From: Pseudobutyrivibrio xylanivorans
GTDB lineage: Bacteria; Bacillota; Clostridia; Lachnospirales; Lachnospiraceae
Reading direction: 5' to 3'
DNA: 64,000 nt
NCBI RefSeq assembly: GCF_008935055.1
Contig: NZ_CP043028.1
Coordinates: forward strand, 1,397,901-1,461,900
Shown here: positions 26,468 through 29,389 of the stretch, piece after piece
How positions within the stretch are numbered: the first letter of the stretch is position 1
Layout: every line of letters begins with the position of its first letter
Made by a program: the position numbers and the translations under genes
The notes under the pieces: generated by a model
Database searches by the model: none
What the model was told of the DNA's origin: nothing
What the model saw: the letters and a program-made list of their open reading frames with translations, nothing else

Positions 26468-27478
26468 TTAAAGGATGACAACTCCTCTTTCGTTAGCATA
26501 CTTAACATCTTCCTCTGGCCAGAATGAGCACTGAACCTCACCAATGTGGCACTTACGAAGGAAGAACATACAGATACGGCTCTGTCCGATACCACCACCA
26601 ATTGTATAAGGAAGCTGCTTGTTAAGAATTGCCTTCTGGAATGGAAGCTCTGCGCGCTCCTCGCAGCCGGCCTTCTTAAGCTGAGATGCAAGACTGTCCT
26701 CATCAACGCGGATACCCATTGATGAAAGCTCAAGTGAAATATCATCCACTGGATAGTAAACAATGATATCACCGTTAAGTTGCCAATCATCATAGTCAGG
26801 TGCGCGTCCATCATGCTTCTCACCAGACTTGAGCAAATCACCAATCTTCATAAGGAAGATTGCGCCATACTCCTTGGCTGCCTCGTACTCACGCTGATTG
26901 TGATCAAGGTCTGGCCATCTGTCCTCGAGCTCCTGTGTAGTGATGAAGTGAATCTCCTCTGGGAGGATGCACTGAACATAGTCATATGAATTTGCAATAT
27001 ATTTCTCAGTAACGCGAAGAGCAGCATAAACGCTCTTTACGTACTTCTTAAGAGTCTCTTCGTTACGAGCAGATTTCTCGATGATACATTCCCAATCCCA
27101 CTGGTCAACATAGATAGAATGAATGTTATCTGTATCCTCATCGCGGCGGATAGCATTCATATCAGTATAAAGGCCCTCGCCTACATTGAAACCATAGCGA
27201 CCAAGGGCCATTCTCTTCCACTTTGCAAGAGAATGCACAACCTCAACCTCTTTATCGCCCTGCTCCTTTACTCCGAATGCAACTGGGCGCTCCACACCAT
27301 TTAAGTTATCGTTCAAACCTGACTCAGGCTCGACAAATAATGGTGCTGTCACACGATGAAGATTAAGCTCAGCAGTAAGCTGTGCCTGGAAGAAGTCCTT
27401 CACCTTCTTGATAGCGATTTGTGTTTCTTTAAGATTCAACGCCGAAGCGTAACCTTCTGGGATGTATATCTTGCTCAT
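26468..27478 (-). CDS. asnA: Aspartate-ammonia ligase (asparagine synthetase A)
   Basis: 336 residues, full length for AsnA. The protein is related to class II aminoacyl-tRNA synthetases and makes asparagine from aspartate, ammonia and ATP. Family landmarks are APLFVEPESGLNDNLNGVER, YTDMNAIRRDED, VDQWDWE and GGGIGQSRICMFFLRK near the end. ATG 27478 has GGAGG nine bases upstream. It follows asnS in the same direction, separated only by a 152-bp hairpin, so the asparagine attenuator in front of asnS probably controls it too. Both genes then respond to the supply of charged tRNA-Asn, which fits a joint role in making and using asparagine. Confidence 0.97.
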   Translation of the reverse strand: MSKIYIPEGYASALNLKETQIAIKKVKDFFQAQLTAELNLHRVTAPLFVEPESGLNDNLNGVERPVAFGVKEQGDKEVEVVHSLAKWKRMALGRYGFNVGEGLYTDMNAIRRDEDTDNIHSIYVDQWDWECIIEKSARNEETLKKYVKSVYAALRVTEKYIANSYDYVQCILPEEIHFITTQELEDRWPDLDHNQREYEAAKEYGAIFLMKIGDLLKSGEKHDGRAPDYDDWQLNGDIIVYYPVDDISLELSSMGIRVDEDSLASQLKKAGCEERAELPFQKAILNKQLPYTIGGGIGQSRICMFFLRKCHIGEVQCSFWPEEDVKYANERGVVIL

Positions 27479-27500
27479 AACTTATTGTCCTCCAAGTCCG

Positions 27501-27652
27501 AAATCTCTTTAGGCTTATCTATATATCTTTCCGAGACACGCTTTCGCTCTTGTCGTGCTCATTGCCCTACATAAGGTGCTGCTATGCACCACCTAAGTAG
27601 GGATGGCACTAAAAGGTCTCTTGAAAGATATATAAATAATCCCTAGAGATTT
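27501..27652. repeat. Giant intergenic hairpin between asnS and asnA
   Basis: The whole 152 bp folds on itself. AAATCTCTTTAGGCTTAT at the left pairs with a partner ending AGAGATTT at 27652; ATATATCTTTC pairs with GAAAGATATAT; GAGAC with GTCTC; GTGCTCATTGCCCTAC with GTAGGGATGGCAC; and the tip is GGTGCTGCTATGCACC. A few bulges break the stem. Neither end carries a T run, so it is not a simple terminator. It may set the ratio of asnA to asnS mRNA or be a small mobile palindrome. Confidence 0.8.
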
Positions 27653-27666
27653 CTCATTTAAATGAT

Positions 27667-29067
27667 TTATAAATCACAATTTCCAACTGTACGTGGGAAA
27701 GGTATTACGTCACGGATGTTACCCATGCCAGTTAAGTACATAACACATCTTTCGAAACCTAAGCCGAAACCTGCGTGACGAGATGAACCGTATTTACGAA
27801 GGTCAAGGTAGAACTGGTAATCCTCTTCCTTAAGACCGCACTCTTTCATTCTCTGAACAAGTACATCGTAGTCATCCTCACGCTGTGAGCCACCGATGAT
27901 TTCTCCGATACCAGGAACGAGGCAATCCATAGCTGCTACAGTCTTACCGTCTTCGTTGAGCTTCATATAGAAAGCCTTGATTTCCTTTGGATAATCTGTA
28001 ACGAATACAGGCTTTCCGAAAATCTTCTCTGTGAGGTATCTCTCATGCTCTGTCTGAAGGTCGCAACCCCAAGATACCTTGTAATCGAACTCATCGTTGT
28101 GCTTTTCAAGCTCAGCAACTGCATCTGTATATGTGATGCGACCAAAATCTGAAGAAGCTACATGATGTAATCTATCAAGAAGTCCCTTGTCGATGAAGTT
28201 GTTGAAGAACTCCATCTCCTCTGGAGCATGCTCGAGAACATAGTTGATAACGAACTTAATCATGTCCTCAGCGAGAATCATGTCATCCTCAAGATCAGCA
28301 AATGAAATCTCTGGCTCAATCATCCAGAACTCTGCTGCATGACGAGTTGTGTTAGAGTTCTCAGCACGGAATGTAGGTCCAAATGTGTAGATGTTCTTGA
28401 ATGCCTGAGCATAAGTCTCACCATTTAACTGACCTGAAACTGTAAGGTTTGTAGCATGTCCAAAGAAATCCTGTGAGAAATCAACCTTACCGTCCTCTGT
28501 CTTAGGGATGTTGTTAAGGTCCATTGTTGTAACCTGGAACATCTCACCTGCACCCTCGCAGTCACTTCCTGTAATAAGTGGAGTGTGAACATATACGAAA
28601 TCACGCTCCTGGAAGAACTTGTGAATAGCGTATGCGCAAAGAGAACGAACTCTGAATACAGCCTGGAATGTATTTGTACGTGCACGAAGATGTGTCTGTG
28701 TACGAAGATATTCCATTGTGTGGCGCTTTGGCTGAATTGGATAGTCAGGTGTTGACTTACCCTCTACCTCAACCTTTGTTGCCTGAATCTCGAATGGCTG
28801 CTTAGCCTCTGGTGTAAGAACTACAGTACCTGTTACGTATACTGCTGCACCTACGTTAAGGTGGCAAACCTCATCGAAGTTGTCAATCTTATCCTGGTTG
28901 AAAACTACCTGTACTGGATTGAAAAATGTACCATCAGCAAGTACTAAGAATCCGAAGGTCTTTGAATCACGCATGTTGCGTACCCATCCAGAAACTGTAA
29001 CTTCCTTGCCGTCGTAGTCTTTGAAGTTTCTTGATAGTGTTCTTACGTCTGTTGTTTTAACACTCAT
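27667..29067 (-). CDS. asnS: Asparaginyl-tRNA synthetase
   Basis: 466 residues, class IIb. An N-terminal OB-fold anticodon-binding domain ([20 protein letters not shown]) is followed by the catalytic core with motif 2 ([21 protein letters not shown]) and motif 3 ([20 protein letters not shown]) near the end. AsnRS is told apart from AspRS and LysRS by the TRHAAEFWM context. It charges tRNA-Asn with asparagine. ATG 29067 has AAAGGAG seven bases upstream. The 5' leader of about 290 bases holds an asparagine-rich leader peptide and a terminator (29173-29336), so expression should rise when charged tRNA-Asn is scarce. Confidence 0.98.
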
Positions 29068-29103
29068 TGTATTTTCTCCTTTAATACTTCTTTACATACT
29101 AAT

Positions 29104-29126
29104 AGTATCTAGCTTTGCTAGATACT
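29104..29126 (-). other. Perfect hairpin just before the asnS ribosome site
   Basis: AGTATCTAGC and GCTAGATACT form a 10-bp stem around three bases, about 37 bp upstream of the asnS start. There is no T run. It may stabilise the mRNA or add translational control downstream of the attenuator. Confidence 0.6.
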
Positions 29127-29172
29127 TGTGCAAGCGCTGAGACCGAAGGTCCTTCCTTTCCGCGCGCGTCAC

Positions 29173-29259
29173 ATAAAAGAGCCCCACCAAACTTACGCTT
29201 GATGAGGCTTCCTAATTCTTACTTATTTGAACAATCTTCAACTCTCATCAACACAATAA
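29173..29259 (-). promoter_or_regulatory. Asparagine attenuator: antiterminator and terminator segments
   Basis: Segment 2 (29244-29259, TTATTGTGTTGATGAG) can pair either with segment 1 inside the leader peptide (29305-29318, ATCAACAACAATAA, 13 pairs and one bulged A) or, by TTGATGAG, with CTCATCAA of segment 3. Segment 3 (AGCCTCATCAA, 29199-29209) otherwise pairs fully, with three G-U pairs, with segment 4 (TTGGTGGGGCT, 29180-29190), followed by CTTTTAT, which makes an intrinsic terminator. The leader stop codon lies three bases before segment 2, so a ribosome that finishes the leader covers segment 2 and lets the terminator form. Confidence 0.85.
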
Positions 29260-29261
29260 AA

Positions 29262-29336
29262 TTAAATCCCCTGATTATTATTCACGGAATTATTATTGTT
29301 ATTATTATTGTTGTTGATTACGATTGTGAAATACAT
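29262..29336 (-). CDS. Asparagine-rich leader peptide of the asnS-asnA operon
   Basis: A 24-codon reading frame: ATG at 29336, TAA at 29262-29264. After MYFTIVI come nine consecutive asparagine codons (three AAC, six AAT), then Ser-Val, three more Asn, and QGI. Half of all codons are asparagine. AAGGGG lies seven bases before the ATG and the predicted transcription start is only about 18 bases upstream. The place, directly between a sigma-70 promoter and a terminator in front of the asparaginyl-tRNA synthetase gene, makes this a regulatory peptide in the manner of trpL or hisL: ribosomes would stall on the Asn run when charged tRNA-Asn is low. The peptide itself probably has no further function. 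Confidence 0.92.
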   Translation of the reverse strand: MYFTIVINNNNNNNNNSVNNNQGI

Positions 29337-29360
29337 AATTGTTCCCCTTTATTCTGTTAA

Positions 29361-29389
29361 AGTATAAATTTTTCGACTATTTAAGTCAA
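29361..29389 (-). promoter_or_regulatory. Sigma-70 promoter of the asnS operon
   Basis: TTGACT (29384-29389), 17 bp, TATACT (29361-29366) on the minus strand. Transcription should start near 29354, just ahead of the leader peptide's ribosome site. Confidence 0.85.

Follow-up and report, generated by a model that had tools for sequence, protein, structure and literature searches.

A probable asparagine-sensing, ribosome-mediated attenuator before asnS-asnA of Pseudobutyrivibrio xylanivorans, akin to a wider family of Lachnospiraceae leaders

In Pseudobutyrivibrio xylanivorans a short reading frame crowded with asparagine codons lies before asnS-asnA, which raises the question of how these two genes are controlled. 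The aminoacyl-tRNA synthetase genes of Firmicutes are regarded as T-box territory. A preliminary description of the window, the whole stretch of 64,000 nucleotides analysed here, had proposed instead that the leader works as a trp-type attenuator. We conclude that the leader is probably a ribosome-mediated attenuator sensing charged Asn-tRNA, which would have come from a wider Lachnospiraceae family of leaders and been retuned by Asn codons.

The features of the locus were collected in Table 1. The promoter (found at 29389-29361), the frame with a ribosome-binding site of its own, its Asn codons (12 of 24, nine of them consecutive), segments 1 and 2 and the pairing of segment 2 with segment 3 were all recovered as the preliminary description had given them, and the model matches to both genes agreed with its placement of the leader before asnS-asnA. 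The asnS gene was the sole full-length asnS match in the genome. An attenuator calls for a ribosome-binding site followed by a short frame with clustered cognate codons, which the predicted frame supplies, and asnS and asnA, which charge and make asparagine, lie downstream. TATACT was present 5' of every complete leader in the genus, a conservation that is partly by construction because the alignment was cut at TATACTT, and the leader ATG of the relatives that were printed had a purine-rich site just upstream. Upstream of the leader, the neighbouring gene had a terminator-like site of its own (29490-29471). Between asnS and asnA, a pattern scan revealed no promoter or terminator; this gap (27479-27666) contained an inverted repeat, ATATATCTTTC ... 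GAAAGATATAT, flanking a hairpin-rich core. About 110 hairpin-rich bases (29068-29178) separated the terminator from asnS, and the 111 bases between the two were single copy in the genome. Locus L015 resembled the window in this stretch, and L027 and L029 carried different, partly repeated hairpin elements.

Table 1. Features of the asnS-asnA leader region, in window coordinates.
Feature	Position	Strand	Remark
sigma-70-type promoter TTGACT-17-TATACT	29361..29389	-	10/12 consensus bases
Ribosome-binding site GGGG	29344..29347	-	7 bases 5' of the leader ATG
Leader frame MYFTIVINNNNNNNNNSVNNNQGI*	29262..29336	-	24 codons plus stop, ATG 29336 to TAA 29262
Segment 1	29305..29318	-	partner of segment 2
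Nine-codon Asn run	29289..29315	-	proposed sensor
Second Asn cluster (NNN)	29274..29282	-	codons 19-21, at the inner-hairpin loop
Inner hairpin of 1:2 (AAUUCC-GUG loop CAG-GGGAUU)	29265..29291	-	99.5% of cells paired
Segment 2 (1:2 form)	29247..29259	-	
Segment 2 core TTGATGAG	29244..29251	-	alternative partner of segment 3 (29251-29244 paired with 29206-29199); 7/8 pairs invariant in genus
Segment 3 core CTCATCAA	29199..29206	-	antiterminator partner
Intrinsic terminator 3:4	29180..29209	-	13 pairs (29209-29197 with 29192-29180), loop 4, tail CTTTTAT
asnS, asparagine--tRNA ligase	27667..29067	-	regulated gene; NF003037, TIGR00457
asnA, aspartate--ammonia ligase	26468..27478	-	second gene; TIGR00669, PF03590

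Chance had been called very unlikely, and two controls agreed. The nine-codon AAY run had a single occurrence in the window and none in 100 shuffles, and folding of 29160-29360, a check that had been suggested, gave -52 kcal/mol versus -33.7 kcal/mol (S.D. 3.8) for shuffled sequences, with none of 200 shuffles as low. Runs of six AAY codons in the 3.58-Mb genome were confined to the leader locus (four overlapping matches, all there); the reversed control pattern gave four matches too. The predicted pairings 1:2, 2:3 and 3:4 are mutually exclusive, as expected of an attenuator. The terminator was present with the CTTTTAT tail described for it, but it has 13 pairs rather than 11, and its U-tract is short or weak, as in several relatives.

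The frame, the Asn run, the exclusive pairings and how well they are kept, the position before asnS-asnA and the likeness to other leaders can be read from the nucleotides themselves, and the following mode of action is proposed from them. When Asn-tRNA is scarce, the ribosome would stall at the early Asn codons and mask segment 1, so that 2:3 would pair, block the terminator and let asnS-asnA be transcribed. When Asn-tRNA is ample, the ribosome would complete the leader and depart, 1:2 would form, and with segment 2 sequestered 3:4 would form and end transcription; in long-frame versions of the leader, the ribosome itself would cover segment 2. Both the response to Asn-tRNA and antitermination in vivo are what we infer from this arrangement.

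We further modelled masking in 22 leaders by computing the partition function for the RNA 3' of a ribosome with a leading edge of 11 nt. P(2:3) was 0.99-1.0 in all 22 leaders when the A site held the first Asn codon; the mean over the Asn run was 0.83, and the NNN cluster had a mean of 0.97. Stalling at the last Asn codons predicted weaker antitermination in many leaders, with values down to 0.00. In ribosome-free RNA the mean P(2:3) was 0.26, and 2:3 was favoured in 5 of 22 leaders (0.61-0.98), among them that of the window at 0.61, a value that varies with the 5' end used and was 0.02 when bases were masked within a longer RNA. In L012, L018, L024 and L029, P(2:3) at many Asn codons was also lower in the longer-RNA version.

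The preliminary description had further held that a ribosome reaching the stop codon covers segment 2, and this claim failed. A ribosome at the stop codon in the window extends to 29251, so that the GATGAG core of segment 2 stays free, and P(2:3) with the ribosome at the stop was 0.99-1.0 in 20 of 22 leaders, including that of the window. It was 0 in L031 and L032, which have a longer frame with the stop just past GATGAGAT and would mask segment 2 in the classical way. Masking of segment 2 by the ribosome at the stop codon, as expected of a classical attenuator, was thus absent in the window and 19 other leaders. We took this masking as a trp-like detail and not as a defining one because release lets 1:2 re-form; since the core is free at the stop, termination in the fed state would in the window need release followed by re-formed 1:2, or a 1:2 formed in the absence of translation. 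The trp-type geometry claimed for the leader therefore stood in its pairings, in the preserved Asn run and in the presence of the leader at 22 of 25 loci, but not in the ribosome at the stop.

That the leader is a T-box or another ligand-binding RNA that happens to hold a frame is hardly credible, even though T-box leaders are common for Firmicute synthetase genes and T-box matches do occur in this genome. Three such matches were found (L005, L006 and L007), one over and two under the Rfam cut-off, and the genes behind them resemble trpD, thrS and valS on inspection by eye; sensing of amino acids at the leader level is therefore normal for this cell. None of the three sites from the RF00230 search of the genome lies at asnS, where the covariance model had no match, and a T-box was rejected for this leader. 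At gathering score the 4227 Rfam models had no match in the window, and at relaxed E (up to 1) the one match of the leader region was freshwater-2, which lay outside the leader (E 0.18). In 20 related loci, no Rfam model matched the leader. The earlier statement that asnS is usually controlled by T-box leaders was not borne out either: in a scan of 19 sources, three being this genome's own T-box loci, none of the 16 other asnS loci matched at gathering score, though this score also misses two of the three T-box matches of this genome, which makes for a weak test.

We compared the locus across the genus. Of 28 other Pseudobutyrivibrio genomes, 25 had a full-length asnS locus, and the three left out either carried asnS in split form (G023) or lacked a genuine match to it (G020 and G026). 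Homologous complete leader frames were present at 22 of the 25 loci. One leader was partial (L022, where a contig end cuts the locus and the 3' half is visible), and two loci were without it (L026 and L030), with a chemoreceptor-like gene, judged by eye, directly 5' of asnS. The asnA gene lay at most 1.5 kb from asnS in 23 of the 25 loci, and the remaining two reach a contig end. Most leaders were MAFTSMLNNLNNNNNNSVNNNQGI or close to it. In alignment A2 (22 leaders including that of the window, 21 of them distinct, L008 being identical to L009), 1:2 plus 3:4 were paired in 95.0% of cells versus 32-50% when slid by 1-3 columns, and 2:3 was paired in 99.4% of cells versus 13-51%.

Could the Asn run be a plain trinucleotide expansion in a non-functional frame beside an ordinary terminator? 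AAT repeats can expand by slippage, and the length of the Asn run does vary. However, variation inside the run consisted mostly of AAT/AAC swaps in the 17 short leaders, so that AAC is interspersed; indels within the frames were whole codons as far as segment 1; no other run of six AAY codons exists anywhere in the genome; and the frame, the run and the pairings were preserved throughout the genus. We therefore regard expansion as very improbable. In all 17 short leaders free of indels, the second Asn cluster was AAT AAT AAT. The commonest non-Asn codon in the run was Leu CTC, whose partner is GAG in segment 2 and which was shifted by one codon in L023; L031 had ATC in its run, where its own segment 2 is GATG. 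Since CTC and ATC pair with segment 2, these interruptions fit the 1:2 pairing. The reading of the leader as a trp-type sensor of Asn was supported in the genus comparison because the leader, a mostly synonymous Asn run and the pairings were all kept.

A search for Asn-rich short frames before asnS in other Lachnospiraceae had also been suggested. It found complete leaders in the genus, as above, but none in the readable named asnS loci outside it: among 80 named asnS loci, 78 of them readable, 6 had the leader, all titled Pseudobutyrivibrio and not independent of the genus set, and neither L068 (titled Pseudobutyrivibrio, asnS 83% identical) nor the other readable named loci had one.

The suggested check for covariation likewise gave a divided answer, with none in the genus but some in the wider family. 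No two-sided pair change was found in A2, and column shuffles matched or beat its pairings in 258 of 500 cases for 1:2 plus 3:4 and in 500 of 500 for 2:3, because the columns hardly vary. Segment 4 varied by G-U wobble, and segments 2 and 3 were nearly fixed, which is the pattern expected if each serves two partners and may be taken as suggestive, short of proof. In alignment A5, made of 17 members of the wider family, the terminator was paired in 99.0% of cells and had 16 two-sided changed cells versus 5.8 for shuffles, none of the 500 being as high. The 2:3 helix had 5 such cells versus 1.8 in shuffles (4 of 500 as high), a count also reached by 2:3 slid by -2, and when slid by +2 its covariation score was 0.210 versus 0.175 unslid. 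In four of the 17 rows (L129, L139, L140 and L146), positions 97 (segment 2), 171 (segment 3) and 194 (segment 4) changed together from G-C-G to A-U-A; G-U-A in L137 and A-U-G in L138 are intermediates. The events are few because L139, L140 and L146 are close kin; with no two-sided change inside the genus, support from covariation therefore comes from the wider family only, through a small number of events.

The wider family was found with covariance models. Model R1 was made from the asnS leaders and nothing else. At E up to 0.001 per genome it hit 6 of the 397 genomes of the family, against about 0.4 expected by chance. Its matches were two Pseudobutyrivibrio asnS leaders, three leaders of other genera (L119, L121 and L122), each preceding a gene with a GNAT domain, and L120. 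The last was judged a chance match and was dropped together with L143, since no matching leader frame was seen at the terminator; L124 and L181 were dropped as the reverse strand of the L123 terminator, L196 as a piece resembling a terminator but lacking a leader of this kind, and L195, an incomplete locus, was left outside the family counts. With model R2, matches appeared in 14 of the 397 family genomes (E up to 0.01) and, mostly through the asnS leader, in 26 of the 29 genomes of the genus (E up to 0.05); genus matches to R2 outside asnS were left out (G002, G022, G008 and G004 with E 4e-14 to 5e-10, and weak ones with E 0.007-0.04). Searched with model R3, the class gave matches in 6 of 391 genomes and the order in 17 of 295, and all matching genomes belong to the window's own family. 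The sequences that built R2 and R3 match these models by construction.

A second related leader, L123 (E 0.026 with R1), was found in the genome of the window itself. This leader lies at L123:1498-1671 (G000:C1:2481670-2481843), and 1711-2997 holds a GNAT plus SAM-methyltransferase gene. Close relatives of the L123 methyltransferase were present in 7 of 200 family genomes, 5 of them with the leader (L123, L121, L126, L129 and L131); the methyltransferase loci L128 and L130 had no such leader within 420 bases upstream. In total 29 leaders away from asnS were read, several of them near-identical, and 26 stood before a gene encoding an acetyltransferase domain, a methyltransferase domain or both. 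By Pfam, the first downstream frames of the 29, several of them cut or split, comprised 12 with GNAT only, 9 with GNAT plus methyltransferase, 5 with methyltransferase only, 2 of the phosphorylase superfamily (PF01048, at L193 and L194) and 1 without a match (L142). A skipping-rope RNA (RF02924) lies at L173:2062-2141 on the minus strand, about 390 bases 5' of a family leader.

The asnS leader has the features by which the family was defined, namely an in-frame hairpin, a segment 2 of the GATGAG type and a terminator of the CCTCATC type. In the family, segment 2 is GATGAGG or GATAAGGTC, the terminator contains CCTCATC or GACCTTATC, and in many members segment 1 encloses a CTC codon. The inner hairpin of 1:2 in the window is related to the in-frame hairpin (U)CCCGUGAA-loop-UCAGGGG of most members; a different hairpin was found in L123, L126, L169 and the L139 group. 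The likeness can be seen by setting the near relative L122, MTYSYILNSMPETTMPVNNNYQGLNSVMVDEDMSKCTG, beside the asnS leader L031, MTYSVILNNNINNNNNNSVNNNQGINFDVFDEI. When four asnS leaders were compared pairwise with 13 relatives by single-base shuffles, terminator included, z was 6.3-11.9 for ten of the relatives and 2.1-4.4 for L139, L140 and L146; without the terminator, for L031 only, it was 2.8-7.0 for the ten and 0.0-2.3 for the latter three. The low z values mean that the L139 group and the asnS leaders may have only their architecture in common. L139, L140, L142 and L146 form a sub-type with another in-frame hairpin and weak similarity outside the terminator.

Since the scaffold is somewhat Asn-rich throughout, there is room for the view that the Asn codons only keep the RNA open. 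The asnS leader would then still respond to whatever its relatives sense, perhaps a ribosome-targeting drug or general stress on translation, with the Asn run serving as unstructured A+U-rich RNA. The scaffold shared with leaders before GNAT and methyltransferase genes speaks for this view, as do the moderate Asn content of those relatives (median 13%) and the dominance of AAT (210 AAT, 40 AAC). The longest uninterrupted Asn runs, 4-9 codons in asnS leaders versus 1-4 in relatives, also overlap at four codons. The Asn fractions, however, do not overlap (0.39-0.50, median 0.46, in 22 asnS leaders versus 0.05-0.23, median 0.13, in 29 relatives), runs of at least five Asn codons were seen only in leaders before an asparagine-charging gene, and the mixture of AAT and AAC preserves the amino acid and not the bases. 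We thus consider an inherited signal unlikely, and hold to the reading of the asnS leader as a sensor of Asn-tRNA.

How the leader came to asnS can be approached from the extent of the frame. Of the 28 relatives checked, 27 have a frame that runs through segment 2; the exception is L131, in which segment 2 was unmatched by the search pattern. Since these relatives and L031 and L032 read through segment 2, the short frame of the window is most simply derived. The simplest history suggested by these comparisons would be that a leader of the GNAT type was recruited to asnS and that its Asn run grew later: an ancestral attenuator, mostly found before acetyltransferase and methyltransferase genes, would have been retuned by Asn codons filling segment 1. 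With less assurance, we lean towards a broader view, in which one scaffold spread through the Lachnospiraceae as an interchangeable module with fixed pairings, the codons of segment 1 set the signal, and the copy before asnS-asnA of Pseudobutyrivibrio turned into an Asn sensor. Two narrow tests for mobile carriage gave no matches, namely one relative's leader (L171) against plasmids or phages and one hairpin pattern against viral contigs. If the broader view is true, the passage from another kind of leader, of a stress or drug type, to an amino-acid attenuator would be visible here. The same scaffold before unrelated genes would offer a testable case for the birth of attenuators, in which a leader is copied and its codons are retuned, and not built anew. 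The comparison also singles out a set of GNAT and methyltransferase genes apparently controlled by leaders.

The mechanism is a known one, and the amino acid and the scaffold family are apparently new. The preliminary description knew of no asparagine leader peptide of this kind; in agreement, none was found in Rfam, and the titles and abstract openings of the open-access papers searched described no attenuator with an asparagine or asnS leader peptide and no leader peptides in Lachnospiraceae, Butyrivibrio or Pseudobutyrivibrio. Classical ribosome-mediated attenuators are those of enterobacteria, the trpL, hisL and pheST leaders. The asnS leader is like them in its frame rich in the cognate codon, in its 1:2, 2:3 and 3:4 pairings and in its place before biosynthetic or synthetase genes. 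It differs from them in using asparagine, in occurring in Lachnospiraceae and in that the ribosome at the window's stop codon leaves the core of segment 2 unmasked. Like the T-box (RF00230), it would tie tRNA charging to the expression of synthetase and biosynthesis genes, but the T-box is a tRNA-binding RNA and involves no translation. Among Firmicutes, Rli60 of Listeria monocytogenes, located before ilv-leu, is in the available text of its report a ribosome-mediated attenuator tested by mutation (PMC5864092); likened by description only, both it and the putative asnS attenuator belong to Firmicutes, whereas Rli60 senses branched-chain amino acids. Candidate His attenuators, as far as the available text of their report goes, were described in the Bacillus cereus group, five Eubacteriales and six Erysipelotrichales, with predicted peptides containing 3-5 consecutive cognate codons (PMC9413887). 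They resemble the asnS leader in having runs of cognate codons in Firmicutes; they differ in sensing histidine and in that the same text describes them as acquired separately by lineages, and not as retuned from one family (PMC9413887).
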